From NCBI GenBank assembly GCA_024397995.1, contig CP073746.1, forward strand, positions 3,222,001 to 3,286,000: a stretch of DNA of 64,000 nucleotides, read 5' to 3'. The notes under the pieces were generated by a model. That model was not told where the DNA came from. It was given only the letters and a program-made list of their open reading frames with translations, and ran no database searches. The position numbers were made by a program, and so were the translations under genes. The DNA is from a bacterium SCSIO 12827. Its GTDB lineage: Bacteria > Pseudomonadota > Alphaproteobacteria > Rhodospirillales > Casp-alpha2. Below, one piece after another: positions 7,744-30,056 of the stretch (position 1 is the stretch's first letter; every line of letters starts with the position of its first letter).

Positions 7744-9201
7744 TCAGCTGAGCCACGGCATGGAGAAGGTCTTCACGTTGGTGAAGCTCTTCATGGCCTC
7801 GATCACGCCTTCCTTGTAGCCCAAGCCCGAATCCTTGATCCCGCCGAACGGCGACATTTCGATGCGGAAGCCGGGAACCTCCCAGACGTTGACCGTGCCG
7901 ACGACCAGATCGTCGATGAACCGGGTGATGTACTCCATGTTGTTGGTGCACACGCCCGACGACAGGCCGAAAGCCGTGGAGTTCGAGATCTTGATGACCT
8001 CGGCGATGTCGTCGGGGCAGCGGATGATCGGCACCACGGGGCCGAAGGTTTCCTCGCGCACCAGTTCGCAATCGAAGGGCACGCGGTCGACCAGGGTCGG
8101 GGAATAGAGCGCGCCGTCCCGTTTGTTGCCGTAAAGAAGTTCCGCCCCGTTGGCGACGGCGTCGTTGACCCGCCGTTCGAACTGCATGGCCGCCTTCTCG
8201 TCGATCACCGTGCCGACGTCCGTCGCCGGGTCCATGGGATCGCCGTACTTGATGGCCTTGACCTTTTCCAGGGCGATCTTGACGAATTCGTCGGCGACCG
8301 CGTCGACCACCAGGATGCGTTTCACCGCCGTGCAGCGTTGACCCGAGTTCTTGGTGGCACCCGCGACGGCCAGGGTCGCGGCTTTTTCCAGGTCGGCGTC
8401 TTCCATGACGATCAGGGGGTCGTTGCCGCCCAGTTCCAGCACCATGCGGCGATAGCCCGCGTGTTCGGCTATGTACTTGCCGACCGCCACGCCGCCGGTG
8501 AAGGTCACCAGGTCGGCATGCTCGTTGGTGATCATCTCGTCGGCGATCTCCGCCGGATCACCGGTGATGACCTGGAACATTTCCGGCGGCAGGCCCGCTT
8601 CGTACAGAACGTCGGCCAGAAGCAGCGCCGTCAGCGGCGTCTTTTCCGTCGGCTTCAGGACCATGCAGTTGTTGGTCGCGACCGAGGGTGCGATCTTATG
8701 CGCGACCTGGTTGAGCGGATGGTTGAACGGCGTGATGGCGCTGATCGCCCGCAACGGCTGACGCGTGGTGAAAATCTTACGCTTCGGGCCCGAGGGCGAG
8801 ACGTCGCAGGAAAACACCTCGCCATCGTCCATCAGGGTCAGGGCGGCGGACAGGTTGAACACACTGTTGGAGCGCCCGGCTTCATACATCGAATCCTTTT
8901 TCGACAGGCCGCATTCGGCGGTGATCAGGTCGGACACCTGTTCACGGCGGGAATAGAGGATTTCGCCGGTCTTCTTGAGGATTTCCGCGCGCTCGTGACG
9001 GGTCAGGGTCGGCTTGTATTCAGCAGCCGTCTTGAACGCCTTCTTGACATCGGCGACCGACGCCTTCGGCACCGTGCCGACGACCTTGTTGGTGTAAGGG
9101 TTCATGACCTCGATGCGCTCGTCGCGCACGCCGCTGTCTCCGACAATGCGGAGCTTTTCGTGGATCACTTCGTCCTTGAGGTCGGTAACGGCGCTGTCCA
9201 T
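7744..9201 (-). CDS. phnY: Phosphonoacetaldehyde dehydrogenase
   Basis: A 485-residue NAD(P)-dependent aldehyde dehydrogenase that would oxidise phosphonoacetaldehyde to phosphonoacetate. Catalytic features are Glu256 in LELGGNDP and nucleophile Cys290 in GQRCTAVKR, with FTGGVAVGK and EETFGPVVP further along. The N-terminus ([27 protein letters not shown]) fits the phosphonoacetaldehyde dehydrogenase subgroup. I chose the ATG at 9201 because GGAGG stands 8 nt upstream; the frame is open back to a TTG at 9216. It lies 67 nt behind phnA in the same leftward operon, and phnW is 4 kb upstream. Together these three enzymes make up the PhnW-PhnY-PhnA route from AEP to acetate and phosphate. Confidence 0.93.
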
Positions 9202-9268
9202 GGAATTATCCTCCAAACGTCCCCTGGCGGGGTGTTGTTTAATGCTGTGTTGTTTCAGGCGGCGTTCA

Positions 9269-10540
9269 TCAGGCCGCGTTTTGGGCGAGCGCCGTGTGAT
9301 TCAGCGCCACGTCGAAGATGTCGAAATTGCGGAGCCGCCGGTTGTTGTCGACGGAGGCCGTGCGGGTCACGATCAAGGGGACTTTCTGTTCCGTCACCCC
9401 GCCGTGGGAGCGCAAGGGCTCCTTCAGTTGGCTGAGGTCGTGACGATCGGACGAGGTGCCCAGAACCTTGGCTTTGTCGGACACCACGATCAGGTCGCCC
9501 AGGCGGTCTTCCGGCAGTTCGAACTCGGCGCAGCCGTGTTTCTTGTCGTAGACCTTCTGCACGCCGGAAACCGCGGCCAGCTTGGAGATGACGGTGGATG
9601 TATCCGCGTCCGGCGGCAGGTAGACGGTGGCGAAGGAGCCCAAGGCCCCGTGGTGCACGACATAGGGGTCGGTAATCGGCAGGATCACCCGCGCCTTGCC
9701 CGCCCCCAGGATACCGTCGAGCACTTCCTGCAGATAAATCACGTCGGGCTGGCCGTCGCTGCCGAACTTGGCGTTCATGCCATGGTCGGCGGTCATCGCC
9801 AACACGGCGCCGAGCGCATCCAACTTGGCCCAATAACCGTCCATCATGGCGTAGAAGGCATTGGCCACCGGCGTGCCGGGGGCGTGCTTGTGCTGGATGT
9901 AATCCGTTGTCGACAGATACATGATATCGGGGCGCATGGTTTCCATCAGCTTGACGCCCGCATCGAAGATGAATTCGGACAGGTCCGCCGAATAGACATC
10001 CGGGATCGGCCGCCCGACCAGGGCTTGCGCGTTGTCGATGCCGTTTTCGGCCTTATTGGTCTGGTCCGCCTTTTCCGACGAGAACGACACGGCGCGGCCC
10101 GAGGTAAAGTCGAGGCCATGACCCAACAGGCGGCGCAGCTTGTCCTTGGCGGTGACGATGGCGATCTTGGCGCCGGCGTCGTGGAAGGCCTTGAAGATGG
10201 TATCCGTGCGCAGGAACTTGGGATCGTTCATCATCACTTCCTCGCCCGTGTCCGGATCGAGGAAGAAGTTGCCGGAAATGCCGTGCACCTTGGGCGGCAC
10301 GCCGGTGACGATCGACAGGTTGTTGGGGTTGGTGAAGCTGGGCACCACACATTCGGCGCGCAGGTCGGACCCACCCTTCAGCGCCTTTTCCAGGAACGGC
10401 ATGTGCCCGCCGGCGATGGCCTGTTCGATGTAATCAGGCTCCGATCCGTCGATGCAGACGACCACCAGGGGCTGGCTGGGCCAGGCATAGGTACGGCTGT
10501 TGACGGAAACGCTCTGAGGATGGGATGGGGTCTGGTCCAT
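9269..10540 (-). CDS. phnA: Phosphonoacetate hydrolase
   Basis: A 423-residue alkaline-phosphatase-superfamily enzyme that hydrolyses the C-P bond of phosphonoacetate to acetate and phosphate using two zinc ions. The expected residues are visible: Asp31 in [11 protein letters not shown], nucleophile Thr70 in [14 protein letters not shown], the [10 protein letters not shown] metal motif, the MTADHGMN pair and a late SHGG histidine. It opens the phnA-phnY operon; the regulon motif begins 81 nt upstream. Two starts are possible: ATG 10540 with AAGGTGAG upstream, or the in-frame GTG at 10552. This is the phosphorus-releasing step of the pathway. Confidence 0.95.
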
Positions 10541-10620
10541 GATGCTGCTCACCTTTGAAATCGTCCGGCACGCGGGGACGTGCCCTGGTTTCGGGAATTC
10601 TCGTGACCAGCCAAGGATAT

Positions 10621-10652
10621 GTCAAATCGCTAATAACTATGTGATTGATAGG
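10621..10652. promoter_or_regulatory. Phosphonate-regulon motif, copy A (phnA-phnY promoter)
   Basis: The copy reads GTCAAATCGCTAAT, then AT at motif positions 19-20 and 28-29 and G at position 31. It lies in the 183-bp gap between phnA and the upstream FAD/folate gene. On the minus strand its edge forms a -35 TTGACA (10620-10625), followed after 17 nt by GAGAAT (10597-10602). The site therefore overlaps a likely promoter for phnA, as expected of a LysR-type activator. Confidence 0.7.
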
Positions 10653-10723: not shown

Positions 10724-13177
10724 TCAGCCGCGCAGGCGAGATGACGCGGGATCGTAGAGAGGCTTGAGCGACGCCTGTGCCGGATACCGCACCCCGGCGA
10801 TCTCAATCTCGTAGGCATGGTCGTCGATCCCCGTCTGGCCGCTGTCCGGTACGCTCACATAGCCCATGCCGACAGCACCACCCAACGTATGGCCGTATAT
10901 GCCGGAGGTCACTTTGCCGACGATCTCCCCGTCCCGCCAAATCGGCTCGTTGTGATAGAGCAGCGGATCGGGATCACGGACCAGGAACTGCAGCAAGCGG
11001 CGCGTGCTCCCCGCCTCCCGCTGCTTCAGCAGCGCCTCGCGGCCGATGAAGCCTCCGGGTTTGTCCCAGGCGACGGCGAAACCGAGACCGGCCTCAAGCA
11101 CAGTGTCCTCATCGGAAATGTCATGACCCCAATGGCGGTAGGCCTTTTCGATGCGCAGGGAATTCATGGCATGCATGCCCGCGTGGACCAGGCCAAAGTC
11201 CCGGCCCGCCGCGGTGACGGCTTCATAGACATGGGCCGCGAATTCGGTCGGCACCATGATTTCCCAGCCCAGTTCGCCCGCATAGGAAATACGGGTCATG
11301 CGCGCCATCGCCATCGCGAATTCAACCTCGCGGCTGGCACCGAAGGGAAAGGCGTCGTTGGCGAGGTTTTCCGGCGTCAGCACCGCCAACAGATCACGAG
11401 ATTTGGGCCCGGCGACGCCGATCACCGCATGGCCCGAGGTCACGTCGGTGACGGTGCAGCGCTCATGAGCCTGCACATGGCCCTTGAGCCAATGAAAATC
11501 GCGCACCTGACAGGCACCGGAGGTGACGACCAGGAAGGCATCCTCGGTAAGGCGCGTCACGGTCAGGTCAGCCTCGATCCCGCCCCGGTCGTTCAGCCAT
11601 TGGGTATAGACGGCGCGGCCCGCGCCGCCCGCGACGTCGTTGGCCGACACCCGCCCCAGAACCTTGGCCGCGTCCGGGCCCTCAACCCGGAACTTGGCGA
11701 AAGACGTCAGATCGAACAGGGCGACACCTTCCCGCGCCGCGCGGTGCTCGCCAGCGGAGGCATCGAACCAGTTCTGGCGGCCGTAGCTGTATTCGTATTT
11801 GGGCTCCGTCCCTTCCGGCGCGAACCAGTTGGCGCGCTCCCACCCGGCGCTTTCGCCGAAGCAGGCATTGGCCGCCTTCAGGTGTTCGTGGAGCGGCGAG
11901 CGGCGCAGGCCGCGCCCCGTCGTGTACTGCTGGAACGGCCAATGGGTGGCGTAGAGCAACCCTAAGCTTTCCGACACCCGATCGCGCAGATAGGCCCGGT
12001 TGGCCTGGAACGGCATTTGGCGTCGGATGTCGACTTCCCACAGATCCATGGGGGCATGACCCGACTTGATCCAGTCCGCGACCACGCGGCCGATGCCGCC
12101 CGCCGACTGGATGCCGATGGAATTCAGCCCCGCCGCGATCATCAGGCCGTCCAAGCCCGGGGCGGGGCCCAGGTTGTAGCGGACATCCGGCGTGAAGCTT
12201 TCCGGGCCGTTGAAGAAAGTCTGGATACCGGCATTTTCCAACGCCGGCAGGCGCGCCATGGCGGCTTCCAAAATCGGCTCGAAATGATCGAAATCGTCAG
12301 GCAGTTGATCGAATTCGAAGTCGTCGGGAATACCGTCCATGCCCCAGGGCTTGGCCTTGGGCTCGAACGCGCCGATCAGCATCTTGCCGGCGTCTTCCTT
12401 GTAATAGGCGCATTCGTCGTAAACCCGCAGCACCGGCAGGTCCGGCGTCATGCCCTCGAAGGGTTCGGTGACGATGTAGAAATGCTCACACGCATGCAGC
12501 GGCAAGGTCACGCCGACCTTTGCCGCCATGTCACGGCCCCACATGCCCGTAGCCAGAACGACCCAGCGGGCGTGGACCTCGCCCGCCTCTGTCCGCACGC
12601 CGACGGCGCGGCCGTTCTCGACGATGATGTCATCGACCTTGGTGTCCTCGAACAGACGGGCACCGCCCATGCGCGCCCCCTTGGCCAGGGCCAGGGTGAT
12701 GTCGGCCGGATTGCCCTGCCCGTCCGACGGAATCCAGGTGCCGCCCAGGACATCGCCGGTTTCCACCAGGGGATGACGTTCCTTGACCTCTGCCGGCGAA
12801 ATGATGTCGACCTGCAGGCCGAATACCTTGGCCATGGAGGCATTGCGGCGGAATTCCTCCATCCGCCCTTCGTGGAGTGCCACGGAGACGGATCCGTTCT
12901 GCTTCAGGCCCGTGGCCTGGCCGGTCTCGCCCTCCAGCTCGCGGTAAAGCTCTGCCGTGTATTTGGCCAGCCGCGTCATGTTGGCGCTACCGCGCAACTG
13001 TCCGATCAGCCCGGCCGCATGCCAGGTGGTGCCGGAGGTCAGCTTGCGCCGCTCCAGCAGCACCACGTCGGTGATGCCGATTTTGGTCAGATGATAAGCG
13101 ATGGAACAGCCGATGACCCCGCCGCCGATGACGACGACCTCACAGGTCGCGGGTGGCATCTTGGCGGCGTCGGTCAC
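10724..13177 (-). CDS. FAD-dependent amine dehydrogenase fused to a folate-binding GcvT-like domain (dimethylglycine/sarcosine dehydrogenase type)
   Basis: An 817-residue two-part enzyme. Residues about 12-365 form an FAD oxidoreductase (DAO) domain with VVVIGGGVIGCSIAYHL and TTWHAAGLIGQ; His53 in that motif corresponds to the histidine that binds FAD covalently in dimethylglycine dehydrogenase. A short linker domain follows, then aminomethyltransferase GcvT N- and C-domains (about 420-805) that bind tetrahydrofolate and capture the one-carbon unit. Such proteins oxidise N-methyl groups. The gene starts (GTG) 9 nt after phnW and so is cotranscribed with it. I infer that it demethylates N-methylated AEP or a related aminophosphonate. 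FAD oxidases acting on N-methyl-AEP are known from AEP clusters, but I do not recall this folate-fused form there. An ordinary glycine-betaine-route enzyme is the alternative. Confidence 0.85.
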   Translation of the reverse strand: MTDAAKMPPATCEVVVIGGGVIGCSIAYHLTKIGITDVVLLERRKLTSGTTWHAAGLIGQLRGSANMTRLAKYTAELYRELEGETGQATGLKQNGSVSVALHEGRMEEFRRNASMAKVFGLQVDIISPAEVKERHPLVETGDVLGGTWIPSDGQGNPADITLALAKGARMGGARLFEDTKVDDIIVENGRAVGVRTEAGEVHARWVVLATGMWGRDMAAKVGVTLPLHACEHFYIVTEPFEGMTPDLPVLRVYDECAYYKEDAGKMLIGAFEPKAKPWGMDGIPDDFEFDQLPDDFDHFEPILEAAMARLPALENAGIQTFFNGPESFTPDVRYNLGPAPGLDGLMIAAGLNSIGIQSAGGIGRVVADWIKSGHAPMDLWEVDIRRQMPFQANRAYLRDRVSESLGLLYATHWPFQQYTTGRGLRRSPLHEHLKAANACFGESAGWERANWFAPEGTEPKYEYSYGRQNWFDASAGEHRAAREGVALFDLTSFAKFRVEGPDAAKVLGRVSANDVAGGAGRAVYTQWLNDRGGIEADLTVTRLTEDAFLVVTSGACQVRDFHWLKGHVQAHERCTVTDVTSGHAVIGVAGPKSRDLLAVLTPENLANDAFPFGASREVEFAMAMARMTRISYAGELGWEIMVPTEFAAHVYEAVTAAGRDFGLVHAGMHAMNSLRIEKAYRHWGHDISDEDTVLEAGLGFAVAWDKPGGFIGREALLKQREAGSTRRLLQFLVRDPDPLLYHNEPIWRDGEIVGKVTSGIYGHTLGGAVGMGYVSVPDSGQTGIDDHAYEIEIAGVRYPAQASLKPLYDPASSRLRG

Positions 13178-13186: not shown

Positions 13187-14320
13187 CTATTCGGCGGCCT
13201 GAGGGGCGCCTGTCTTGACCCCCATTTCGGCCAGCACTTCCGACATGGCCTTGAGCGCCGCCTTCATCTCGGCCGCCCCCAAATGCCCGATGCAGCCGAC
13301 GCGGAAGCTGGGCGCCACGGTCAGCTTGCCGGGATAAAGCACGAAGCCCCTGTCCTTGACCTTGTCGTAGAACACCTGGAAATCGAAGTTCGGGGCCGAC
13401 GGCATATGGAAGGTGACGATGATCGGCGCCTGCAAGCCCTGGGGCAGCAGGGTTTGGAAGCCCAGTTCGGCCATGCCGTCGATCAGAATTTTGCAGTTGT
13501 TGGAATAGCGCTTGAAGCGGCCCGGCTGACCGCCCTCGGCCTCGAACTGCTCAATTGCCTTGGCGAAGGCGAAGATGACATGGGTCGGCGGGGTGAAGCG
13601 CCACTGACCGTTGGCCTCCATCGCCTTCCACTGGTCGTAGAGGTCAAGCGCCAGGGAATGAGAATTGCCTTCGCAGGCTTCCAACACCGTCTTGCGGATC
13701 AGGGCGAAGCCCATGCCGGGCACGCCTTCCAGGCATTTGTTAGACGACGCCATGACGGCGTCGAAGGGCACCTTGGCGAGATCCAGTTCGATCGCGCCGA
13801 ACGCGCTCATGGCATCGATGATCAGCGAACGGCCGGCGTCCTTCACCACATGAGCGATGTCGGCGATGGGGTTGAGAATGCCCGAGGTGGTTTCGCAATG
13901 AACGACCAGGACATGGGTGATGGCGGTGTCAGCGGCCAATTTGGCGGCCAGGGCGGCGGCGTCCGGCGGCACGTCCTCGGCGGTTTCGGAAATCTCGAAC
14001 GGACGCCCCGCGTATTCCAAAATCTTGCCCATGCGCTTGCCGTAGGCGCCGTTGGCCAGGATCAGCGCCTTGCCGGTCTTGGGGATCAGGGTGCAGAGCG
14101 CCGCCTCGACCACGAAGGTGCCGGAACCCTGCAGGGGCACGCAGACATGGGTCGCGGCGGCATTGGCGATTTCCAAAAGCTTGCGGCGCACGGCGGCATT
14201 GGCGTCGATGAAGGCCTGATCGCGCGAGCCCCAATCGTGGCGCATGGCGTCGCGGGTTTCGGCGGCCGTGGTCAGCGGGCCGGGCGTGAGGAGAAGAGGG
14301 TCACCGGGTGTCAACGTCAT
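13187..14320 (-). CDS. phnW: 2-aminoethylphosphonate:pyruvate transaminase
   Basis: A 377-residue fold-type I PLP enzyme that transfers the amino group of AEP to pyruvate, giving phosphonoacetaldehyde and alanine. Lys195 in MASSNKCLEGVPG binds PLP. LLTPGPLTT at the start, QGSGTF near residue 65 and TTSGILNP near residue 145 are the family motifs. It begins the phnW-FAD/folate operon; the ATG at 14320 follows a promoter region carrying the regulon motif 91 nt upstream. It supplies substrate to PhnY and PhnA, encoded in the next operon down the same strand. Confidence 0.94.
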   Translation of the reverse strand: MTLTPGDPLLLTPGPLTTAAETRDAMRHDWGSRDQAFIDANAAVRRKLLEIANAAATHVCVPLQGSGTFVVEAALCTLIPKTGKALILANGAYGKRMGKILEYAGRPFEISETAEDVPPDAAALAAKLAADTAITHVLVVHCETTSGILNPIADIAHVVKDAGRSLIIDAMSAFGAIELDLAKVPFDAVMASSNKCLEGVPGMGFALIRKTVLEACEGNSHSLALDLYDQWKAMEANGQWRFTPPTHVIFAFAKAIEQFEAEGGQPGRFKRYSNNCKILIDGMAELGFQTLLPQGLQAPIIVTFHMPSAPNFDFQVFYDKVKDRGFVLYPGKLTVAPSFRVGCIGHLGAAEMKAALKAMSEVLAEMGVKTGAPQAAE

Positions 14321-14410: not shown

Positions 14411-14442
14411 GTCAAATCGTTAATTTGGATATCATCCATAGA
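14411..14442. promoter_or_regulatory. Phosphonate-regulon motif, copy B (phnW promoter)
   Basis: This copy has the exact 14-mer GTCAAATCGTTAAT, with AT at motif positions 19-20 and 28-29, A at 30 and G at 31. It also contains the short palindrome CAAAT-CGTTA-ATTTG. It lies between the importer permease gene (ends at 14479) and phnW (starts at 14320), in the same orientation relative to the leftward gene as copies A and D. Confidence 0.7.
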
Positions 14443-17439: not shown

Positions 17440-18480
17440 CTACTTCGGCTCGGACTTTCCGTCGTAGCGCTTGCGCCACTCGTCCAGGATGCGGATGCGG
17501 TTGGCGGCCGCCCACTTGAAGTCGTTCTTGATCATCTTGTCTTCGATGCCGACGGGGAAGTTCTTCACGGGCTTGGCGACGCCGGGCATGGCGACGACCG
17601 CGTATTCCTCGTTGTAGATTTCCTGCGCCGTCTTGGACACGGACCAGTCGGCCAGCGCCTGGGCGGCCTTCAGGTTCTTGGTGTTCTTGACGATGCCGAA
17701 GGATTCCAGATCCCAGCCCACGCCTTCGGACGGCGCGATGACTTCGAGCGGCGCCCCTTCGTTCTTGGACTTGGCCCCCCGATAGGCGAAGGAAATGCCG
17801 ATGGCGATTTCACCCTTGGCCGCCAGCTTGCAGGGCTTGGAGCCCGAATGCGTGTAGCGCGCGATGTTTTCGTGCAGGGCATCCATGTACTTCCAGGCCT
17901 TTTCCTCGCCCTGGATCTGGATCCACGACGACACGTCGAGGAAGCCCGTGCCCGAAGAGTTCGGGTTCGGCATGATGACATGGCCCTTGTAGACCGGCTT
18001 GGTCAGGTCTTCCCAGGTCGCGGGGATCGGCAGCTTGTGCTTTTCGCCTTCGACCGTGTTGAAGCAGACCGACGCGATCCAGGCGCGCTGCCCGACCCAC
18101 AGCGGCGGGGTGTTGGTGGTGTCGTAATACTTCTTCGACAGCTTATCCAAGCCCTTGGGCGCATAGCCCTGGAAATAATCGTAATCGGCCAGCAGCAGCA
18201 GGCTGGTCGCCGCCACGCCCCAGACGATGTCCGCCTTGGGGTTTTCTTTCTCGGCCAGCAGCTTGGAGGTGATGATGCCCGTGGAATCGCGGACCCACTT
18301 GATGTTGACGTCCGGATTGTCTTTTTCGAAGGCGGTTTTGAACTTCTTCAGCTCATCCGCCTCGACCGCCGTGTAGACCAGAAGATCGGTCTTCGCCTTG
18401 GCGGGCGCGGCACCCAGGATGGCGGCCGTCGCCACCGTCGCCAGCCCCAAGCCGAGGCTGCTGAACCATGTTGATTTCAT
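17440..18480 (-). CDS. AEP ABC transporter periplasmic binding protein (PhnS type)
   Basis: A 346-residue precursor with a Sec signal peptide (MKSTWFSSLGLGLATVATAA, cleavage near residue 29 after AKA). The mature protein starts KTDLLVYTAVEADELKKFKTAFEK and belongs to the iron/AEP extracellular solute-binding family 1. The segments YHALP-like MPNPNSSGTGFLDVSSW and GVGWDLESFGIVKNTKN are characteristic. It is the first gene of the importer operon. It is divergent from the lysR gene across a 254-bp region holding motif copy C, 215 nt upstream of its start. Confidence 0.92.
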   Translation of the reverse strand: MKSTWFSSLGLGLATVATAAILGAAPAKAKTDLLVYTAVEADELKKFKTAFEKDNPDVNIKWVRDSTGIITSKLLAEKENPKADIVWGVAATSLLLLADYDYFQGYAPKGLDKLSKKYYDTTNTPPLWVGQRAWIASVCFNTVEGEKHKLPIPATWEDLTKPVYKGHVIMPNPNSSGTGFLDVSSWIQIQGEEKAWKYMDALHENIARYTHSGSKPCKLAAKGEIAIGISFAYRGAKSKNEGAPLEVIAPSEGVGWDLESFGIVKNTKNLKAAQALADWSVSKTAQEIYNEEYAVVAMPGVAKPVKNFPVGIEDKMIKNDFKWAAANRIRILDEWRKRYDGKSEPK

Positions 18481-18694: not shown

Positions 18695-18726
18695 GTCAAA
18701 TCGTCAGTTTATATAGATCGTATAGG
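18695..18726. promoter_or_regulatory. Phosphonate-regulon motif, copy C (lysR / importer divergent region)
   Basis: This copy reads GTCAAATCGTCAGT, with AT at motif positions 19-20, AT at 28-29 and AGG at 30-32. It ends 8 nt before the lysR start codon, so a bound regulator would cover the lysR promoter or ribosome site. It also faces the binding-protein gene 215 nt away. This fits autorepression plus divergent activation, the classic LysR arrangement. Confidence 0.68.
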
Positions 18727-18734: not shown

Positions 18735-19601
18735 ATGTACTATTCGCAACTGCGCGCGTTCCATGCGGTCGCCACGCAGGGCGGCTTCTCCAAGGCCGCC
18801 GAACACCTGCATCTGACCCAGCCGACCCTGTCCGACCAGGTCCGCAAGCTGGAAAAGGATTTCGACGTTCTGTTGTTCAACCGCACCTCGCGCTCGGTCG
18901 CCCTGACCGATGCCGGGCGGCACCTGCTCGCCATCACCAACCGGATGTTCGAATGCGAGGGCGAGGCGCTGGAATACCTCAAGGAATCGCAGAACCTGCT
19001 GGTCGGCTCCCTGACGCTCTCGGCCGACGCGCCCTTTCATGTGCTGCGCATCGTGCGCGCCTTCCGCAACCGCTATCCGGGCGTGACCGTGAACCTGAAG
19101 ATCGGCAACTCGGAAGACATCCTCAATCAGCTTTACGATTTCGACGCCGACGTCGGCGTGTTTTCCCATGTGCCCGACGACGCCAGGCTCAAGGTGCTCA
19201 GCCTGCGCGACGACCCCCTGGTCGCCGTCATCAACCGCGACCACTCCTGGGCCGGGCGCGGCGCGGTCAAATTCAAGGAACTGGCCGGCGAGCCCCTGGT
19301 GCTGCGCGAACGGGGCTCGACCACCCGCCGGCTGGTCGAACAGGAATTCGCCCGGCTGGAGCTACAGATGGGCACGGTGATGGAGGTCGAAGGCCGCGAA
19401 AGCATCCGCGAGGCCGTCGCCACCGGCAACGGCATCGGCTTCGTCTCCAAACCCGAATTCGGCTTCGACTCGCGCCTCGTGATGATCGAGCTCAAGGACT
19501 GCAAACTGCCCATGCACGAATACATGGTCTGCCTGGAAAACCGGGCCGAAACGCGGGTGGTTCGGGCGTTCTGGGAGCTGGCGGTGACGGAGCGGGATTA
19601 G
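18735..19601 (+). CDS. LysR-family regulator of AEP catabolism
   Basis: A 288-residue regulator. The N-terminal winged helix-turn-helix (residues 1-60, MYYSQLRAFHAVATQGGFSK then TQPTLSDQVRKLEKDFDVLLF) is followed by a linker helix and a two-lobe inducer domain (about 90-285). The MYYSQLRAFHAVA opening and FNRTSRSVALTDAG are typical of the phosphonate-associated LysR subgroup. It is divergent from the AEP importer operon. I infer that it binds the four GTCAAATCGYTAAT motifs. AEP, phosphonoacetaldehyde or phosphonoacetate are possible inducers; none can be read from the sequence. Confidence 0.9.
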   Translation: MYYSQLRAFHAVATQGGFSKAAEHLHLTQPTLSDQVRKLEKDFDVLLFNRTSRSVALTDAGRHLLAITNRMFECEGEALEYLKESQNLLVGSLTLSADAPFHVLRIVRAFRNRYPGVTVNLKIGNSEDILNQLYDFDADVGVFSHVPDDARLKVLSLRDDPLVAVINRDHSWAGRGAVKFKELAGEPLVLRERGSTTRRLVEQEFARLELQMGTVMEVEGRESIREAVATGNGIGFVSKPEFGFDSRLVMIELKDCKLPMHEYMVCLENRAETRVVRAFWELAVTERD

Positions 19602-20467: not shown

Positions 20468-20868
20468 GGTTCTTCATCGACAATAACCTACCACCACAAT
20501 TTGCCAGGGCTCTGGACGCCCTAAGTCACGCTGAGGGGCACAGCGTCCAACATCTTAGAGATCTATTCCCTTCTGACACGCCAGATCATGTCTGGCTTAA
20601 CGTTCTCGCTGACGAAGGTAATTGGATCATCATCACGCAAGACCGCATCCGAAAAAATGACCTGGAAAAGATGGCTCTCCGGCGCACCGGAATCGTCACC
20701 TTCATGCTAAAAAAATCATGGAGTGACCACAAATTCTGGGAGAAAGCACAAAACTTAGTGAAATGGTGGCCACGCATTATGGAGCATGCGGAAGGGGTGA
20801 CGAATGGTGTGTTTCTCGTCGACTGGCGTATGTCCGGGAAGGGTAAGTTCGAGACCGTCACGGTTTAG
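20464..20868 (+). CDS. PIN-like (DUF5615/Mut7-C type) toxin
   Basis: A 134-residue protein starting at a TTG that overlaps the antitoxin stop as TTGA, which couples their translation. The opening MRFFIDNNLPPQFARAL holds the first acidic residue of PIN-like nucleases. Further acidic or active-site candidates are DTPDHVWLNVLADEGNWIIITQDRI (about 38-63), with the conserved TxD of the fold. The likely activity is RNA cleavage, blocked by the upstream antitoxin. It lies tail-to-tail with the glutamine-synthetase-like gene and shares the lower GC of its partner. Confidence 0.75.
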   Translation: MRFFIDNNLPPQFARALDALSHAEGHSVQHLRDLFPSDTPDHVWLNVLADEGNWIIITQDRIRKNDLEKMALRRTGIVTFMLKKSWSDHKFWEKAQNLVKWWPRIMEHAEGVTNGVFLVDWRMSGKGKFETVTV

Positions 20869-20942: not shown

Positions 20943-22310
20943 CTAAATAATCTCGAAATACCGCTCCATCTCCCAGTCGGTGATGGCGCGGCGGAATTCG
21001 CGTTCTTCCCATTCGCGGGTCGCGGCGTAGTGGTCGACGAAGGCGTCGCCGAACAGGCCGCGCGCGGGCTTCGACGTCTTGAGCATCCCGGCCGCGTCCA
21101 TCAGGGTGCGCGGCAGGTTGAGGCGTTTGGGGAAGGTCTTGTCATAGGCGTTTCCCTCAACCGCCTTGTCGGGCTCGATCTTGTTTTCGATCCCCCACAG
21201 CCCGGCCCCGATGCCGGCGGCCAGCGCCAGATAGGGGTTGGCGTCGGCGGCGGCGATGCGGAATTCCACGCGCTGCGATTTTTCCGAGCCGGGGATGATG
21301 CGGATCGCGCAGGTCCGGTTGTCGACCCCCCAGGTCGAATCCGTCGGCGCCCAGAAGCCCGGCACCAGGCGGGTGTAGCTGTTGACCGTGCCGGCGATCA
21401 TGGAAAGGAATTCGGGCAATAATTTCTGCTGCCCGCCGACGAAGTGGCGCATGGTGTCGCTCATGCCGTGCGGCTTTTTCCGGTCCAGGAACACCGGCTT
21501 GCCCGCCTTGGTCGTCAGCGACATGTGGATATGGCCCGACTGCCCCGGCCAGTCCGGCGACCAGCGCGCCATGAAGGTCGCCATCAGGCCGCGCTTCTGC
21601 GCCATGATCTTGGCAAACGTCTTGAACAGCACGGCCTTGTCGGCGGCCGCGAGCGCCCCGTCGACCTGAATGGCCGCTTCGAGCACGCCCGGCCCCGTTT
21701 CCTCGTGCAGGCCCTCCAGCGCCATGTCCATCTTCAGGCAGCCGTCGAGGATGTCGCGGTACAGGTCGCTTTCGACCGTGGAGCGCAGCATGGAATAGCC
21801 GAAGAAGCCCGGCTGGATCGGCTTCAAATCGCGGTAGTTCTTTTCGCGCACGGTTTCGGGTGTTTCCTCGAACATGAAGAACTCGTATTCGAGGCCGGCC
21901 AGCACCTTGAAGCCCATCTTCTCGGCCTTGGCCAGGGTCCGGCGCAGCACGGCGCGGGGGCAGACTTCTTCATACTTGCCGTCGAATTCGCCCAGGAAGA
22001 ACAGCATGTCGTCTTCCCAGGCGATCTCGCGGCAGCTTTCGGGGATGACGCGCACGGGGGCATCGGGATAGCCCGTGTGCCAGCCGGTGACGGAGACATT
22101 GTCGTACAACTGATCCTTGGAATCCCAGCCCAGCACCACGTCACAGAAGCCGAAGCCCTTATCGAGGGAGGAGATGAACTTGTCGGCCTTCATGTATTTG
22201 CCGCGCATGATGCCGTCCATGTCGACCACGCCGACCTTCACGTATTCGCATCCGCGCTCGGCGATGATCTTCTTGGCGTCTGCCGCCGTCTTGACCTGTC
22301 TCGGTTTCAT
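20943..22310 (-). CDS. Glutamine-synthetase-family ligase (gamma-glutamyl-amine synthetase type)
   Basis: A 455-residue ATP-dependent ligase of the glutamine synthetase superfamily. Visible motifs are the metal-binding GLEYEFFMFEE (about 140-150), GQSGHIHMSL (glutamate and ATP site), VDNRTCAIRI, and VEFRIAAADANPYLALAA. The adenylylation tyrosine motif of GlnA is absent (KRLNLPRTL is found in that region), and it is unlike a GlnA in operon context. These proteins generally join glutamate to an amine such as putrescine or ethanolamine. It is the last gene of an operon headed by a phosphonate-regulon motif. I infer that the acceptor may be an aminophosphonate or its product, but polyamine ligation is equally possible from sequence alone. 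Confidence 0.8.
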   Translation of the reverse strand: MKPRQVKTAADAKKIIAERGCEYVKVGVVDMDGIMRGKYMKADKFISSLDKGFGFCDVVLGWDSKDQLYDNVSVTGWHTGYPDAPVRVIPESCREIAWEDDMLFFLGEFDGKYEEVCPRAVLRRTLAKAEKMGFKVLAGLEYEFFMFEETPETVREKNYRDLKPIQPGFFGYSMLRSTVESDLYRDILDGCLKMDMALEGLHEETGPGVLEAAIQVDGALAAADKAVLFKTFAKIMAQKRGLMATFMARWSPDWPGQSGHIHMSLTTKAGKPVFLDRKKPHGMSDTMRHFVGGQQKLLPEFLSMIAGTVNSYTRLVPGFWAPTDSTWGVDNRTCAIRIIPGSEKSQRVEFRIAAADANPYLALAAGIGAGLWGIENKIEPDKAVEGNAYDKTFPKRLNLPRTLMDAAGMLKTSKPARGLFGDAFVDHYAATREWEEREFRRAITDWEMERYFEII

Positions 22311-22343
22311 CTGCCTGTCCCCCTTATTGGAAATCGTTCGGCC

Positions 22344-23519
22344 CTAGAATTCCAGACGCCCCCCATGGGCGTCCAGGAACAATGCCGCGTATTGGTCCTT
22401 GGTGAATGGGATCGGGTTGCCCCCCGCCGTCGGATCCTCGACCGCCATGGCGCCGACCGTGTCGGCATCGTCGCCGGGAATGTTCATCTCGGCCAGGGTG
22501 TGCGGAATGCCGATCTCGGCCCGCAGGTCCAGGATCCAGCGGATCACCCCGGCGGGCGAATGCTCGGCAAGATCGAGGGCGCGGGCCAGGTCCGTCAGGT
22601 CCTTTTCAATCGCCGCCTTGTTAGCGTTGACCACATAGGGCATGAGCACGGCGTTCAAGAGCCCGTGGTGGGCGTCGTAAAGTGCCCCCAGCGGATGGGC
22701 GAGCGCATGAATGCCGCCGAGGCCGCGCTGAAACGCCGTCGCCCCCGCCATGGCCGCCGCCATCATGTGGGAGCGGGCCTCGATATTCTTGCCGTCCGCA
22801 ACCGCGGTCGGCAGCCAGTCCTTGACCAGCCGCATGCCCTCCAGCGCCACACCTTTCGCAAACGGGTGATAGAACGGCGCCAGATAGGCTTCTAGATTGT
22901 GCGAGAGCGCGTCCATGCCCACCGCCGCCGTGACATGCGCCGGCAGGCCGATGGTCAGGGCCGGATCGGCGATGGTCACGCTCGGCATCATCTTGGGATG
23001 AAAGATGACCTTTTTCACGTGGCGGGCACTGTCCGTAATGACCGAGGCGCGGCCCACGTCCGATCCCGTGCCGGACGTGGTTGCGACGCAGACGTTGGGG
23101 GCGATCCCGGCCGGGTCGGCGCGGGCCCAGTTGTCGCCCACGTCCTCGAAATCCCACAGCGGCCGGGTCTGACCCGCCTGAAAGGCGATGGCCTTCCCGG
23201 CGTCCAGCGCGCTGCCGCCGCCGAAGGCGATGACGCCGTCGTGATTGCCCGCCTTGAACGCGGCGACCCCGGCCTCGACATTCTCCAGCGTCGGGTTGCC
23301 CTTGATGGCGGAGAACACCTGGACCGAAAGCCCGGCCCCTTCGACTGCGGATACGGCCTCGGCCACCATGGGCAGGGCCGCCAGGCCCGGGTCCGTCACC
23401 AAAAGCGGATTGGCCATGCCCGCCTGGGTGCAGGCCTCGCCCAGTTCCGCGAGGCGCCCGGCGCCGAAGCGGATGGCCGTGGGGTAGTTCCAGTTTCCTT
23501 TAAGGGGCATCGTTGTCAT
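22344..23519 (-). CDS. Iron-containing alcohol dehydrogenase
   Basis: A 391-residue NAD(P)-dependent group III alcohol dehydrogenase. The nucleotide-binding segment FGGGSALDAGKAIAFQ lies near residue 100. Metal ligands appear in VGMDALSHNLEAYL and HALAHPLGALYDAHHGLLNAVLMP, which hold the expected Asp and His residues. Fe-ADHs are recurrent in phosphonate clusters, where they act or are thought to act on phosphonoacetaldehyde or hydroxyethylphosphonate. The gene lies 5 nt after the aldehyde dehydrogenase gene, so the pair is tightly coupled; an alcohol-to-aldehyde-to-acid sequence is a reasonable but untested reading. Confidence 0.9.
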   Translation of the reverse strand: MTTMPLKGNWNYPTAIRFGAGRLAELGEACTQAGMANPLLVTDPGLAALPMVAEAVSAVEGAGLSVQVFSAIKGNPTLENVEAGVAAFKAGNHDGVIAFGGGSALDAGKAIAFQAGQTRPLWDFEDVGDNWARADPAGIAPNVCVATTSGTGSDVGRASVITDSARHVKKVIFHPKMMPSVTIADPALTIGLPAHVTAAVGMDALSHNLEAYLAPFYHPFAKGVALEGMRLVKDWLPTAVADGKNIEARSHMMAAAMAGATAFQRGLGGIHALAHPLGALYDAHHGLLNAVLMPYVVNANKAAIEKDLTDLARALDLAEHSPAGVIRWILDLRAEIGIPHTLAEMNIPGDDADTVGAMAVEDPTAGGNPIPFTKDQYAALFLDAHGGRLEF

Positions 23520-23524
23520 GGGGG

Positions 23525-24916
23525 TCAGACCTGCGTGCGAAGGTGAAAGGACATGGGCCGGGTCAGGTGATCGTAGCCCAGGGGCGACAGGGTGCAGCCC
23601 CGGCCCGAATTCTTGACCCCGGTCCAGGCCAGGGCCGGGTCCAGATAGTCGGCCCGGTTCATGAAGAGCGTTCCCGTCTCGACGCGGGCACCCAGCGCCA
23701 GGGCCGCGTCCGCATCCGCCGTCCAGATGCTGGCGGTCAGGCCGAAGTCGCTGTCGTTCATCAGGGCCACGGCCTCGTCGTCGCCGGAAACCTTCATCAC
23801 GCCGACCACGGGGCCGAAGGATTCTTCCGTCATCACCCGCATGCCGTGGTCGACGCCGACCAACACCTGCGGCGCCATGTAGGCGCTGCCCGCCCCGTCG
23901 CGCGGAAAGGCCTTGGGATCGATCAGGGCCTGGGCCCCGGTCTGGACAGCGTCGGCGATCTGGCCGCGCACGAAGTCGGCGGCCTTGGGCCGCACCATGG
24001 GGCCCAGGGTCGTGGCCGGATCAAGCGGGTCGCCCAGGACATAGCCCTTGGCGATCTCCACCATGCCCTGAACGAAGTCGTCATAGACGTCGGCGTGGAC
24101 ATAGACCCGCTCGATCCCGCAGCAGCTTTGCCCGGAATTGAAGAACGCCCCGTCGGTCACGTTCTCGATGGCGTGGGGCAGGTTGGCGTCGGCCCGCACA
24201 TAGGCCGGATCCTTGCCGCCCAGTTCCAGCCCGATGCCGATGAAGCGGCCCGCCGCCGCCTGCTCCATGGCCGCCCCGCCGGGGACGGAGCCGGTGAAGG
24301 CGACGAAATCGATCTCGGGGGATTCCACCACGCGGGCGGTCTGGTCGTGGGTCAGGTGCAGGACCTGGAACAGGCCATCGGGGGCCCCCGCGGCCTCGAA
24401 CGCGCGGGCGATGCGCTCCCCACACAGCGGCGTCTGCGTCGCGTGTTTCAGGACCACCGCGTTGCCGGCCATGATCGCCGGGACGATGGCGTTGACCGCC
24501 GTGAGGTACGGATAGTTCCAGGGGGCGACGACCAGCACGACGCCCAAAGGCATGCGGCGGATGAAGCGGGTGAAGCCGGGCTTGTCCGGGGCCGGCCGGT
24601 CGGCAAGCACGTCTTCCGCAATCGCGATCATGTGCTGTGCCCGTTCCGCGAAGCCGTTGACCTCGCCCGCGCCATAGCGCGCGGGCCGGCCCATCTGGCG
24701 GGCCAGTTCCTCGGAAATGTCTTCGGGGTCTTTGATGAAGGCATCGACCATGGCCGTGCACAGCGCCGCCCGCTCGGCGACCGGCACATGGCGCCAGGCG
24801 ACCTGACAGGCCCGGGCGCGGTCGAGCGTGGTCTGAATATGGGCATCGGCGGCGGCGGGACGTTCGGCGTAAACCGCGCCATCGACGGGAGAAATGCATG
24901 TAAGGGTTTCGGTCAT
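23525..24916 (-). CDS. Aldehyde dehydrogenase (second, distinct from PhnY)
   Basis: A 463-residue NAD(P)-dependent aldehyde dehydrogenase. Catalytic Glu231 is in LELGGKDP and nucleophile Cys265 in NSGQSCCGIERVYV; PWNYPYLTAVNAIVPA and FTGSVPGG mark the cofactor fold. It is about 20 residues shorter than PhnY at 7744-9201 and clearly not its duplicate. It sits between the D-2-hydroxyacid dehydrogenase and the iron alcohol dehydrogenase. The substrate is unknown; candidates from context are phosphonoacetaldehyde or a gamma-glutamyl-amino aldehyde made after the operon's ligase. Confidence 0.9.
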   Translation of the reverse strand: MTETLTCISPVDGAVYAERPAAADAHIQTTLDRARACQVAWRHVPVAERAALCTAMVDAFIKDPEDISEELARQMGRPARYGAGEVNGFAERAQHMIAIAEDVLADRPAPDKPGFTRFIRRMPLGVVLVVAPWNYPYLTAVNAIVPAIMAGNAVVLKHATQTPLCGERIARAFEAAGAPDGLFQVLHLTHDQTARVVESPEIDFVAFTGSVPGGAAMEQAAAGRFIGIGLELGGKDPAYVRADANLPHAIENVTDGAFFNSGQSCCGIERVYVHADVYDDFVQGMVEIAKGYVLGDPLDPATTLGPMVRPKAADFVRGQIADAVQTGAQALIDPKAFPRDGAGSAYMAPQVLVGVDHGMRVMTEESFGPVVGVMKVSGDDEAVALMNDSDFGLTASIWTADADAALALGARVETGTLFMNRADYLDPALAWTGVKNSGRGCTLSPLGYDHLTRPMSFHLRTQV

Positions 24917-24986
24917 GGAGCACTCGGTCTGTGGGCCGGGGAAAGGCGGACGTTAGCCCGCCGGTCCGGCGCGCGCCAGGGTGTTT

Positions 24987-26003
24987 CTAGCCCTCGAACC
25001 GCACGCCCTGAGTCTGAGCGCGCAGGCGCGGGTCGGGCGATTTCACGGTCACGGGCCGTCCCTCCAGAACCTCGCGGCAGCGCTCCAGGGTCTCAAGCTC
25101 CAGGCGCTCCATGGCCTCATGGGTGAAGAAGGTCAGATGCGGCAGCAGGATCACGTTGTCCATGCCGAACAGGGGGCTTAGGGGATGGCCTTCGAGCATC
25201 AGCGGCTCCTGGCTGTAGACGTCGAGGCCGGCACCCGCGATGCGGCCTTCCAGCAAGGTGCGGACCAGGGCCGCCTCGTCGATGACCGCCCCCCGCGCCA
25301 CGTTCAAAATGATCGCCGTCGGCTTCATGGCCGCCAATTCCTTGGCCCCGATCAGGCCCCGCGTTTCGTCGTTGAGAACCGAATGGACAGAGACGACATC
25401 CGATCGCGCCATCAGGTCCATCAGGTCCGCCACGGGCTCGATCCCGATGCGCATCAATTCGGCGGGCGGGGTATGGGGGCTGTAGGCGATGACATGCGCG
25501 CCGAACCCCGCCCCGGCCATCTGCGCGAAGGCGCGGCCGATGCGCCCGGCCCCCACGATGCCCACGGTCTTGCCCGCGATGTCATTGGCCAGCCATTTTT
25601 CCTCGGGCCAGGCCCAGCCGTCGGCCCGCATGGCGCGGTCCAGCGGGATCAGCTTTTTCGCCAGCGCCAGCATCAGGGTGAAGGCCCCTTCGGCCACCGT
25701 GCGTTCGGCATATTCCGGGATGTTGACCACGGGGATGCCCCGCGCCCACGCGGCCGCCATGTCGATGGCGTCGATACCGACGCCGTATTTGACGATGCCC
25801 TTGAGTTTCGGGGCCGCCGCGATCACCCGTTCGGTGATCGGCGTATAGCACATGAGGATCAGGTCCGCGTCGGCGACAGCGTCGAGCAGAACGTTCTCCC
25901 CCGCCCCGTCGGGCACCAGAACCAGATCGACGCCCATGTCGCGCAGGCCTGCGTCGATCACTGGGCATTGCAATTCGCGGTCCGTGCGGACGACCTTGAC
26001 CAT
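24987..26003 (-). CDS. D-2-hydroxyacid dehydrogenase family protein
   Basis: A 338-residue NAD(P)-dependent oxidoreductase of the D-isomer 2-hydroxyacid dehydrogenase family. The Rossmann motif is VGIVGAGRIGRAFAQM (about 150-165). The catalytic Arg is in LNVARGAVIDE, followed by a Glu in DVYSQEP and the His in LLPHLTFFTHEA. I chose the ATG at 26003 because AAGGAACACAG precedes it; the frame runs open to 26189 inside the aminotransferase gene, which is not coding. In an operon under the phosphonate motif it may reduce or oxidise a phosphono-2-hydroxy acid, but this is inference. Confidence 0.88.
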   Translation of the reverse strand: MVKVVRTDRELQCPVIDAGLRDMGVDLVLVPDGAGENVLLDAVADADLILMCYTPITERVIAAAPKLKGIVKYGVGIDAIDMAAAWARGIPVVNIPEYAERTVAEGAFTLMLALAKKLIPLDRAMRADGWAWPEEKWLANDIAGKTVGIVGAGRIGRAFAQMAGAGFGAHVIAYSPHTPPAELMRIGIEPVADLMDLMARSDVVSVHSVLNDETRGLIGAKELAAMKPTAIILNVARGAVIDEAALVRTLLEGRIAGAGLDVYSQEPLMLEGHPLSPLFGMDNVILLPHLTFFTHEAMERLELETLERCREVLEGRPVTVKSPDPRLRAQTQGVRFEG

Positions 26004-26035
26004 CTGTGTTCCTTCCCTTGCCGGGTTGTTGTCGT

Positions 26036-27439
26036 TCAAGCCAGGCCTGCTTCGCGGGTGGCATCCGTGATGGCGCGTTCCAGCACGTCGAGGGCCTGAT
26101 CCATCTGGTCCCGCGTCACCACCAGGGGCGGCGTCAGGGTCAGCGTGTTGCCCATGGAGATTTTGAACGACAGGCCGCCGTCCAGGCAACGGTAGAGAAC
26201 GTCTTCAACAAGATCCGCCGCCGGCGCTTTCCCGGCCTTGTCCATGACCAGTTCGACCCCCATCAGGAACCCCCGCCCGCGCACGTCGCCGATGACGCCG
26301 ATGCGCCCCTTCATGTCATGCAGGCGGCCGAGAGCATAAGCCCCCAGGGTCGCCGCGTTCTCGACCAGGTTTTCGTCCTCGATGATCTCGATCGTGGTCA
26401 GCCCGGCCCGCGTGGTCACCGGGTTTTTCTCGTGCGTGTAATGGCCAAAGGCGTAATCGCCGGCGACGTCCAGGCCCGGCCGGGCGATGACGGCGGCGAT
26501 GGGCAGGATGCCGCCGCCGAGCCCCTTGCCCATGACCAAGATGTCCGGCACGACATCATCATGGTCACAGGCGAACATGCGCCCGGTCTTGCCCAGGCCC
26601 GTGGGGATTTCGTCGAAGATCAGAAGCGCGCCGACGTCGTCGCAGGCCTGGCGCACGGCGGCCCAGAACCCGGGCGGCGGCACGAAGGGCACGGCGCGGG
26701 CCGGTTCGGCGATCACGGCGGCGACGTCGCCTTCCTTTTCCAGCACGTAGCGCACCATGTTGGCGCAGGTCATCTTGCACAGGTTCAGGTCCGGCTGGCC
26801 GTCCGTTTCGGGATATCCATAGGGGCAGCGGTAGCAGGCGAAGGGGGCGACGTGCTCGGTCCCCGCCAGCAGCGGGCCGACCAAGTTCGATCTGAACAAC
26901 TGTTCCCCGCCGACCGACGACGCCCCGAATCCGGCGCCGTGAAAAGCGTCCCAGAACGACACGGTCTTGAACCGCCCGGTGGCCGCGCGGGCCAACTTCA
27001 GCGCGACCTCGACCGCGTCGGACCCGCCCGTGGTGAACAGCACCTTGGACAAATCGCCCGGCGCGATGTCGGCCAGTTTGCGCGCCAAGGCCGTCGCGGG
27101 CGCGCACGCAAACCGGCGGGGCGCGAACGGCAAGGCGTCCATCTGATCGGCGATGGCCTTCTTCAGGCGCGGATGGCCATAGCCGATGTGATGCACGTTG
27201 TTGCCGTGGAAATCGAGATAGCGCCGTCCTTCGGCGTCCTCGATCCACGGCCCCTCGGCCTTGGTGATCACCGACAGGCAGGGCGTGGACACGGACTGGT
27301 GCAGGAACAGGTCTGCGTCCTCGGCAAGTTGTGTCTGCGACGCCGCCCCCAGGGCCCCCGCCGCCCATTCCCGGCGCCGGGGCGAGGCATTGCTTTCGCC
27401 CTCGGACGGGGCCGGAATGGCGGGTTTCTCAATGGGCAT
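26036..27439 (-). CDS. Class III aminotransferase-fold PLP enzyme, candidate (R)-1-hydroxy-2-aminoethylphosphonate ammonia-lyase (PbfA-like)
   Basis: A 467-residue fold-type I PLP enzyme. Lys305 in LVMGKGLGGG binds PLP, with Asp276 in LLIFDEIPTGLGKTG and TTGGSDAVEVALKLAR for the phosphate. The N-terminal LDFHGNNVHHIGYGHPRL and FAPRRF are family-typical. PbfA, an ammonia-lyase with this fold, converts 1-hydroxy-AEP to phosphonoacetaldehyde and is recurrent in AEP clusters, where databases usually label it aspartate aminotransferase. I place the ATG at 27439; a TTG frame start at 27502 falls inside the regulon motif and is unlikely. It leads the five-gene operon and its promoter carries motif copy D 59 nt upstream. 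An ordinary transaminase remains possible. Confidence 0.72.
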   Translation of the reverse strand: MPIEKPAIPAPSEGESNASPRRREWAAGALGAASQTQLAEDADLFLHQSVSTPCLSVITKAEGPWIEDAEGRRYLDFHGNNVHHIGYGHPRLKKAIADQMDALPFAPRRFACAPATALARKLADIAPGDLSKVLFTTGGSDAVEVALKLARAATGRFKTVSFWDAFHGAGFGASSVGGEQLFRSNLVGPLLAGTEHVAPFACYRCPYGYPETDGQPDLNLCKMTCANMVRYVLEKEGDVAAVIAEPARAVPFVPPPGFWAAVRQACDDVGALLIFDEIPTGLGKTGRMFACDHDDVVPDILVMGKGLGGGILPIAAVIARPGLDVAGDYAFGHYTHEKNPVTTRAGLTTIEIIEDENLVENAATLGAYALGRLHDMKGRIGVIGDVRGRGFLMGVELVMDKAGKAPAADLVEDVLYRCLDGGLSFKISMGNTLTLTPPLVVTRDQMDQALDVLERAITDATREAGLA

Positions 27440-27497
27440 GGACAGCACGCGTTCCCCTGGATTGGTCGACGGAGTGTCGCCAGGGGTCCCGGTATAC

Positions 27498-27529
27498 GTC
27501 AAATCGTTAATGCCGATAGAATTTATCGG
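27498..27529. promoter_or_regulatory. Phosphonate-regulon motif, copy D (five-gene operon promoter)
   Basis: This copy has the exact 14-mer GTCAAATCGTTAAT shared with copy B, with AT at motif positions 19-20 and 28-29 and G at 31. It also contains the perfect palindrome GCCGATA-GAATT-TATCGGC at 27512-27530. It is the only copy outside the 9-19 kb AEP locus and lies 59 nt upstream of the PbfA-like gene, in the same orientation as copies A and B. Confidence 0.68.
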
Positions 27530-27574
27530 CAGGGCCTATGTAGGAACCATTCGACGACGGCGTGACGGCAGCCC

Positions 27575-30052: not shown

Positions 30053-30056
30053 GCCC

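Follow-up and report, generated by a model that had tools for sequence, protein, structure and literature searches.

Phosphonate breakdown genes and a predicted ethanolamine module in one probable operon of bacterium SCSIO 12827

The window analysed here is a stretch of 64,000 nucleotides of bacterium SCSIO 12827 (contig CP073746.1, positions 3,222,001 to 3,286,000), and our subject is a five-gene operon at 20943-27439 on its minus strand, close to genes for the breakdown of 2-aminoethylphosphonate (AEP). We consider it probable that this operon joins two known modules, the breakdown of 1-hydroxy-2-aminoethylphosphonate (HAEP) and the gamma-glutamylation of ethanolamine, under the AEP regulator. 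What is seen directly for this reading is the family membership of the proteins, the order of the genes, an operator shared with AEP genes, and a linkage to AEP genes that recurs in other genomes. Below, G, L and g numbers are our handles for genomes, loci and genera.

In the proposed scheme, PbfF would invert S-HAEP to R-HAEP, PbfA would eliminate ammonia from R-HAEP to give phosphonoacetaldehyde, and PhnY and PhnA would convert this to phosphonoacetate and then to acetate and phosphate. In parallel, a ligase would join glutamate to ethanolamine, an iron alcohol dehydrogenase (Fe-ADH) would oxidize the alcohol of the glutamylated ethanolamine to the aldehyde, and an aldehyde dehydrogenase (ALDH) would oxidize the aldehyde to gamma-glutamylglycine. 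A class I amidotransferase encoded elsewhere would then release glycine and glutamate.

Both ethanolamine and AEP are widespread as nitrogen-containing head groups of lipids. Their breakdown is mostly treated separately in the literature that we searched. The shared operator and the repeated linkage in several genera suggest that some bacteria handle AEP and ethanolamine as one resource, with the two lipid-type nutrients taken as a single meal. The likely reason for the union is a common supply: the same kinds of lipid carry AEP, HAEP, and ethanolamine (or phosphoethanolamine) as head groups.

Operon structure

The genes of the operon, in reading order, are:

26036..27439, minus strand: pbfA (NF049939, 653.5 bits against a cut-off of 525; start codon and ribosome-binding site assigned from the sequence)
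24987..26003, minus strand: pbfF, NAD-dependent HAEP racemase of the 2-Hacid_dh family (by PbfF clade, identity to the Mesorhizobium plurifarium homologue, and motifs)
23525..24916, minus strand: ALDH, predicted gamma-glutamyl-aminoacetaldehyde dehydrogenase (PF00171; GQSCCG motif; relatives adjoin glutamine synthetase-like (GS) and Fe-ADH genes in many genomes)
22344..23519, minus strand: Fe-ADH, predicted gamma-glutamylethanolamide dehydrogenase (PF00465/PF25137; relatives adjoin GS genes in many genomes)
20943..22310, minus strand: glutamine-synthetase-like gamma-glutamyl ligase, predicted ethanolamine gamma-glutamylase (PF00120; best Protein Data Bank (PDB) matches 11zs and 5dm3)

The original prediction for this DNA described five genes in one leftward operon with gaps of 5-70 nt. 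All five open reading frames do lie on the minus strand; from pbfA to the ligase gene, the gaps between them are 32, 70, 5, and 33 nt. Their products belong to the Pfam families Aminotran_3, 2-Hacid_dh, ALDH, Fe-ADH, and GS catalytic domain. The start of pbfA is most likely the ATG at 27439 rather than the longer open reading frame start at 27502. Judging from the spacing, the common strand and the single operator, the five genes probably form one transcript. The ratio of nonsynonymous to synonymous polymorphism (pN/pS) among genomes of the same genus (congeners) was 0.07-0.27 for all five genes.

A terminator that divides the operon was considered and rejected. A region-wide scan found five terminator-like sites against 4.9 expected, all on the opposite strand, and listed no terminator-like site in the 70-nt gap between pbfF and the ALDH gene. 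This gap holds a weak hairpin with a fold z of -1.07, and the hairpin is not conserved in the congener locus L059.

Shared operator

A box in front of pbfA also occurs at promoters of the AEP genes, and a gene for a LysR-type protein adjoins one of its copies:

27498..27531, minus strand: operator/promoter box 5' of pbfA, with core TTAACGATTTGAC at 27498-27510 and a dyad at 27511-27531
18695..18707, minus strand: variant box (CTGACGATTTGAC) between lysR and phnS (motif match)
14411..14423, minus strand: same box 5' of phnW (motif match)
10621..10633, minus strand: same box (TTAGCGATTTGAC) 5' of phnA (motif match)
18735..19601, plus strand: LysR-type regulator, AepR-like by position (PF00126/PF03466; adjoins one box)

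With up to two mismatches, TTAACGATTTGAC has five sites in the window (0.63 expected), a number reached in none of 100 shuffles. The 9-base core CGATTTGAC alone has four sites (0.87 expected), a number reached in one of 100 shuffles. It had been claimed that the operon carries the promoter motif of phnW and phnA, and the genome scan bears this out: the 3.93-Mb genome has three exact TTARCGATTTGAC sites, upstream of phnA, phnW, and pbfA, so that all of them fall within this cluster. One extra site in the same scan has a mismatch; the pattern reversed, as a control, matched once. No further exact core copy was found inside the operon or upstream of the ligase, Fe-ADH and ALDH genes in the whole-genome scan.

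The longer box, dyad then core, is present in four congeners (G103, G095, G111, and G191). Among the promoters that lie in the fetched congener stretches, the pbfA box was seen in L057, L058, L059, and L104, the phnW box in L057, L058, L061, L263, and L264, and the phnS box in L057, L058, L059, L061, and L263. Only L263 and L264 extend as far as phnA, and both have its box. Since the box is shared by the phnA, phnW, and pbfA promoters and recurs in congeners, the operon is very probably part of the AEP regulon, and the tie to this regulon that had been proposed thus gains support.

The LysR protein is the probable regulator that binds the four boxes. LysR-type AepR regulators are known beside AEP genes in Pseudomonas putida (PMC9311074). 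The likeness to the AepR-controlled phnWX genes of P. putida BIRD-1, as that source describes them, lies in the LysR-type regulator beside AEP genes (PMC9311074). In contrast to the system described there, the window has the box at four promoters, one of which serves HAEP genes together with ethanolamine-type genes.

PbfA and PbfF

PbfA had been named as a member of the operon, and the protein scores well above the NF049939 equivalog cut-off. The original prediction did not count the D-2-hydroxyacid dehydrogenase among the known companions of AEP catabolism, and this part did not hold: by its clade and its 66% identity to a homologue, the protein is PbfF, a phosphonate enzyme published in 2025 as an NAD-dependent racemase, which supplies PbfA with R-HAEP made from S-HAEP (PMC12366243). 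The homologue is from Mesorhizobium plurifarium STM8773 (L212; possibly the assayed protein CDX32929). Named genomes were scanned for PbfF relatives; 143 were found, and we retained the 80 best loci. In a quick tree the window protein lies inside an 80-row PbfF clade (the window and 79 of the 80 loci, one locus having been dropped by a stop/length filter), which is set apart from six generic relatives with 100% SH-aLRT support. The NVARG, EP, and PH motifs are present.

The kept loci include Mesorhizobium plurifarium STM8773, Labrys sp. WJW, Bosea lupini, M. ciceri WSM4083, and Boseongicola aestuarii, and these five species stand in Table 1 of PMC12366243. PbfA is encoded in the flank of 64 of the 80 loci. 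It is absent from the other 16, some of which are on short contigs, and PbfF may therefore use an unlinked partner or do something else. Loci without a flanking PbfA include L182, L184, L185, L187, L232, and L238, some of them long and with unrelated neighbours.

As published, the S/R-HAEP route has an adjacent PbfA-PbfF pair beside a phnWYA-type set with a LysR regulator (PMC8154272, PMC12366243), and the window resembles it, with a pbfA-pbfF gap of 32 nt inside an AEP cluster. The window differs from the route described there in that the pair leads a separate operon that also holds the ethanolamine-type trio of ligase, Fe-ADH, and ALDH. PbfF was published from two alphaproteobacterial orders, Hyphomicrobiales and Rhodobacterales (PMC12366243). 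Three congener records that carry PbfF are titled Rhodospirillaceae, which widens the range of PbfF to a lineage of that title. PbfF homologues also occur in six metagenome-assembled genomes titled Burkholderiales, Burkholderiaceae, Granulosicoccaceae, or Gammaproteobacteria, whose binning is unchecked (L213, L225, L239, L245, L249, and L257).

Ligase, Fe-ADH, and ALDH

The ligase scored below the NCBIfam cut-offs for GlnA (236/429 bits), type III glutamine synthetase (211/470), and gamma-glutamylputrescine synthetase (191/650), and these three identities were rejected. Against the PDB it scored 233 bits with 5dm3 and 125.9 bits with the glutamate-methylamine ligase 9qur. The Fe-ADH was below every NCBIfam cut-off listed; its identity as the phosphonate enzyme PsrA was rejected (TIGR03405, 130.6 against 423.7 bits).

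Relatives of the trio were collected at two taxonomic depths. In the sample of the window's order, 48 of 199 genomes had a ligase match at 1e-80, and 40 loci plus three more distant ones were fetched (four distant ones were left out). G191, with its locus split over two contigs (L061 and L104), was left out of the labels. Among the 39 labelled loci, 18 have phnW, phnA, phnY, phnX, or pbfA within 10 kb, 14 have EtoX or EtoW, and seven have neither. In the class sample, 62 of 385 genomes had a match at 1e-130 and 60 loci were fetched (G360, at 50%, is not among them). Five of these 60 have one of the same phosphonate genes within 10 kb, one has EtoX, and 55 have no phosphonate gene in this range; many of the other loci are plain GS-ALDH-FeADH or GS-FeADH sets, some with a class I amidotransferase. 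Since several fetched stretches stop at contig ends, the 10-kb counts are lower bounds.

The 11 loci of genus g36 hold, in order, a regulator (c6), genes of a tripartite ATP-independent periplasmic (TRAP) transporter (c9, c8, and c7; present in 11/11), GS, ALDH, and Fe-ADH, and ten of the 11 also hold a class I glutamine amidotransferase (GATase, c3). The substrate-binding protein c7 matches PDB 4uab/4xf5 at 565 bits, and in L052 the homologues of c6 and c3 are annotated as RpiR family and class I glutamine amidotransferase. These are parts of the Phaeobacter ethanolamine cluster, in which the amidohydrolase gene is placed differently (PMC10132767). Seven plasmid loci (L050-L056) have no phn gene above threshold; L051 has a PhnW-like gene (39%) below it. 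One of them, on a Legionella lytica plasmid (L050), has GS-ALDH-FeADH and then a gene annotated 'GMP synthase', which together look like a complete gamma-glutamyl module for an amino alcohol.

In Phaeobacter, the published order is EtoVWX, ligase, aldehyde dehydrogenase, and alcohol dehydrogenase; several proteins of the cluster were raised on phosphorylethanolamine, and binding of ethanolamine by the substrate-binding protein was measured (PMC10132767). The cluster of Phaeobacter sp. MED193, given there as RpiR, GGAH, EtoVWX, ETAGA, GAADDH, and GETADH, resembles the window in having the ligase and both dehydrogenases together. This likeness is one of gene content, the Phaeobacter sequences having not been compared directly, and relatives of the window ALDH and Fe-ADH adjoin EtoX in other genomes. 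Unlike the cluster described there, the window operon has no EtoVWX, RpiR, or amidotransferase gene, and an AEP-type operator stands in front of it. Gamma-glutamyl-ethanolamine chemistry has also been proposed for GlnA4 of Streptomyces coelicolor, with a gamma-glutamylethanolamide synthetase, a dehydrogenase, an aldehyde dehydrogenase, and amide hydrolysis (PMC6529630). As described there, the first dehydrogenase is annotated as short-chain, whereas that of the window is an Fe-ADH, and no link to phosphonates is mentioned. By these comparisons the trio matches the known gamma-glutamyl-ethanolamine module and most likely serves ethanolamine breakdown.

The original prediction saw in the operon a possible undescribed phosphonate branch, in which a gamma-glutamylation might be followed by alcohol and aldehyde oxidation. 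The logic of these steps survives in kind. The label of a new phosphonate branch for the most part does not, since pbfA and pbfF encode published phosphonate enzymes and the trio matches a known ethanolamine-type module.

Linkage to AEP genes

For 60 ligase genomes, picked by hand for a ligase contig of about 60 kb or more, we asked where PhnW and PbfA are encoded. PhnW was found at 1e-75 in 26 of them and at that cut-off in none of the other 34. In 15 of the 26 the ligase lies within 20 kb of PhnW, while about 0.25 genomes would be expected under random placement. Since genomes of one genus are not independent, counts by taxon are fairer: 7 of the 15 genera show the linkage, as do 6 of the 12 families. 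PbfA is present in 10 of the 60 genomes, and in seven of the ten it is within 20 kb of the ligase, in two genera (g1 and g126). In the g126 genomes G239 and G365 a LysR gene stands between the trio and phnS, transporter, pbfA, and phnW genes, an arrangement that resembles the window. A trio with another type of ligase abuts pbfA-pbfF in Boseongicola (L242, with EtoX) and is near it in Bosea thiooxidans (L228).

In the loci examined, the full set of five genes turned up in no genus but that of the window, and the ligase occurs in three of the 80 best PbfF loci, all congeners. Whether the genes mainly occur without phosphonate genes depends on the level. This is true for the trio class-wide, as the counts of 5/60 linked loci and 34/60 genomes without PhnW indicate, but neither for the trio in the window's order (18/39 linked) nor for PbfA-PbfF. 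Searches of open-access papers brought up no report that plainly connects AEP clusters with the ligase or with the ethanolamine module. New here are the recurrence of the trio beside AEP genes and, in the window genus, an operon and operator shared with pbfA-pbfF.

Substrate of the trio and alternative explanations

We infer from the comparison of genomes that ethanolamine is the substrate of the trio. In a tree of 105 ligases, phn-linked and EtoX-linked sequences interleave, with 11 changes of the phn label, at least nine of them forced by supported branches; the tree was made by a quick method with SH-aLRT only, some long branches were flagged, and the outlier L096 (43% identity) was kept. 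A ligase clade specific to phn linkage was therefore rejected. Six genomes (G027, G046, G060, G119, G141, and G033) have a phn-linked ligase and, at another locus, EtoVWX without an adjacent ligase. EtoVWX is accompanied by ALDH in three of them (L267-L269), and in G141 (L270) the contig stops 1.5 kb past EtoX. A separate copy of a second ligase type was found only in G114 among 32 genomes searched (G119 and G041 gave no match at 1e-60, and the remaining genomes matched their own first-type ligase). Thus, with two ligase types searched, no candidate partner of EtoVWX other than the phn-linked ligase was found in the six genomes; GS-like proteins more distant than these two types also exist. 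EutB, searched for as a sign of an alternative ethanolamine route, was absent from all eight genomes, the window's included, while the control found it in E. coli. Also on the side of ethanolamine, the window genome encodes a homologue of the class I GATase.

Several observations weigh against ethanolamine. At 1e-80, none of the five genomes of the window genus has the EtoX-type TRAP protein (it is present in 14 of 32 examined), and among importers only the AEP ABC transporter was seen with the operator. The GATase homologue of the window genome (G000:C1:1398252-1399070) is unlinked, with 39% identity to the g36 GATase and 51% to a same-family one. The window ligase and its counterpart in the Boseongicola EtoX cluster share about 35% identity, and we found no assay of the window ligase's own clade in the literature. 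The Fe-ADH has 19 residues in the window genus that occur in none of 70 other rows, compared with six for the ligase and nine for the ALDH. Its changes include E154D and M258A (the others keep E and M, 70/70), A144C (69/70), and D/E222K (68/70); all four genus rows share these, and T200V is in three of the four. They may reflect an altered substrate, and in alignment with PDB chains no genus-specific change was placed surely in the active site. Finally, the nearest Fe-ADH rows come from other families (L152, L120, and L146).

Outside the genus, the nearest ligase rows are from the same family (L064 and L065). Since the nearest relatives of ligase and Fe-ADH are in different families, the trio appears to be reassembled, a mosaic; the ALDH comparison set held no same-family ALDH. 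For each of the three enzymes we also listed the alignment columns that tell phn-linked rows apart from eto-linked ones. About 4 kb from the GATase homologue, the window genome has a second Fe-ADH (47%; L259, G000:C1:1398252-1403985).

A first alternative is that the trio acts on an aminophosphonate. HAEP or a related hydroxy-aminophosphonate would be glutamylated and oxidized, perhaps with release of phosphite or phosphate from an acylphosphonate-like intermediate. The operon and operator shared with pbfA-pbfF, the missing EtoX, the changed Fe-ADH, and the linkage to phn genes in 7 of 15 genera would all fit, but the HAEP route is already complete in the regulon with PbfF, PbfA, PhnY, and PhnA. 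Moreover, 34 of the 60 ligase genomes lack PhnW at 1e-75, phn-linked and EtoX-linked ligases interleave in the tree, and for the EtoVWX genes of six genomes no partner but the phn-linked ligase was found. We therefore regard this explanation as unlikely. There is a small chance that the AEP regulon captured the trio and re-tuned it to an amino alcohol arising in the phosphonate pathway (HAEP or cargo of the AEP transporter), and a main ground for retaining action on an aminophosphonate at this level is the set of genus-specific Fe-ADH residues. A re-tuned trio would give phosphonate catabolism a gamma-glutamylated route, and we found no report of such a route in the open-access literature. The shift would then show in the altered Fe-ADH.

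The trio might also be a mere passenger, transcribed by read-through from the pbfA promoter without a functional link, its gene order a historical accident. The 70-nt gap with its weak hairpin and the restriction of the five-gene set to one genus among the loci examined are what such a passenger might leave, but pN/pS is low in all five genes, no other exact core copy lies upstream of the trio, and ligase and PhnW are within 20 kb of each other far more often than the 0.25 genomes expected. Thus, we think it rather improbable. Least probable, and very much so, is that the ligase takes methylamine or another amine that the FAD enzyme of the phn cluster frees from N-methyl-AEP. PbfC and PbfD are reported to release methylamine rather than formaldehyde (PMC10590968), and homologues of the FAD enzyme adjoin FeADH in three ligase clusters. 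However, methylamine offers no alcohol group to the Fe-ADH and ALDH, the glutamate-methylamine ligase 9qur scored 125.9 bits against 233 for 5dm3, and congener G111 keeps the trio with no match to the FAD enzyme between phnW and phnA.

Neighbouring genes

The phn cluster lies to the left of the operon and also holds transporter open reading frames. Its assigned genes are:

17440..18480, minus strand: phnS2, AEP ATP-binding cassette (ABC) transporter substrate-binding protein (TIGR03261, 506.4 bits against 392.75)
13187..14320, minus strand: phnW, AEP-pyruvate transaminase (TIGR02326, 484.7 against 400.8)
10724..13177, minus strand: FAD oxidoreductase with GcvT domains, possibly of an N-methyl-AEP-acting group (PF01266 and PF01571)
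9269..10552, minus strand: phnA, phosphonoacetate hydrolase (TIGR02335, 573.6 against 407.55)
7744..9216, minus strand: phnY, phosphonoacetaldehyde dehydrogenase (TIGR03250, 807.2 against 635.65)

The ligase clusters in which a homologue of the FAD/GcvT enzyme adjoins FeADH are L126, L130, and L142. The arrangement is a possible hint of an additional substrate, N-methylated ethanolamine or AEP. Between lysR and the ligase end of the operon, at 19775-20868, a DUF433/HTH_66 gene is followed by a PIN-like gene, a toxin-antitoxin-like pair. Beyond the pbfA end, genes at 27665-35182 encode, by their translations, a copper-type P1 ATPase (divergent from the operon), a MerR-family-like regulator, and cytochrome-like and multicopper-oxidase-like proteins.

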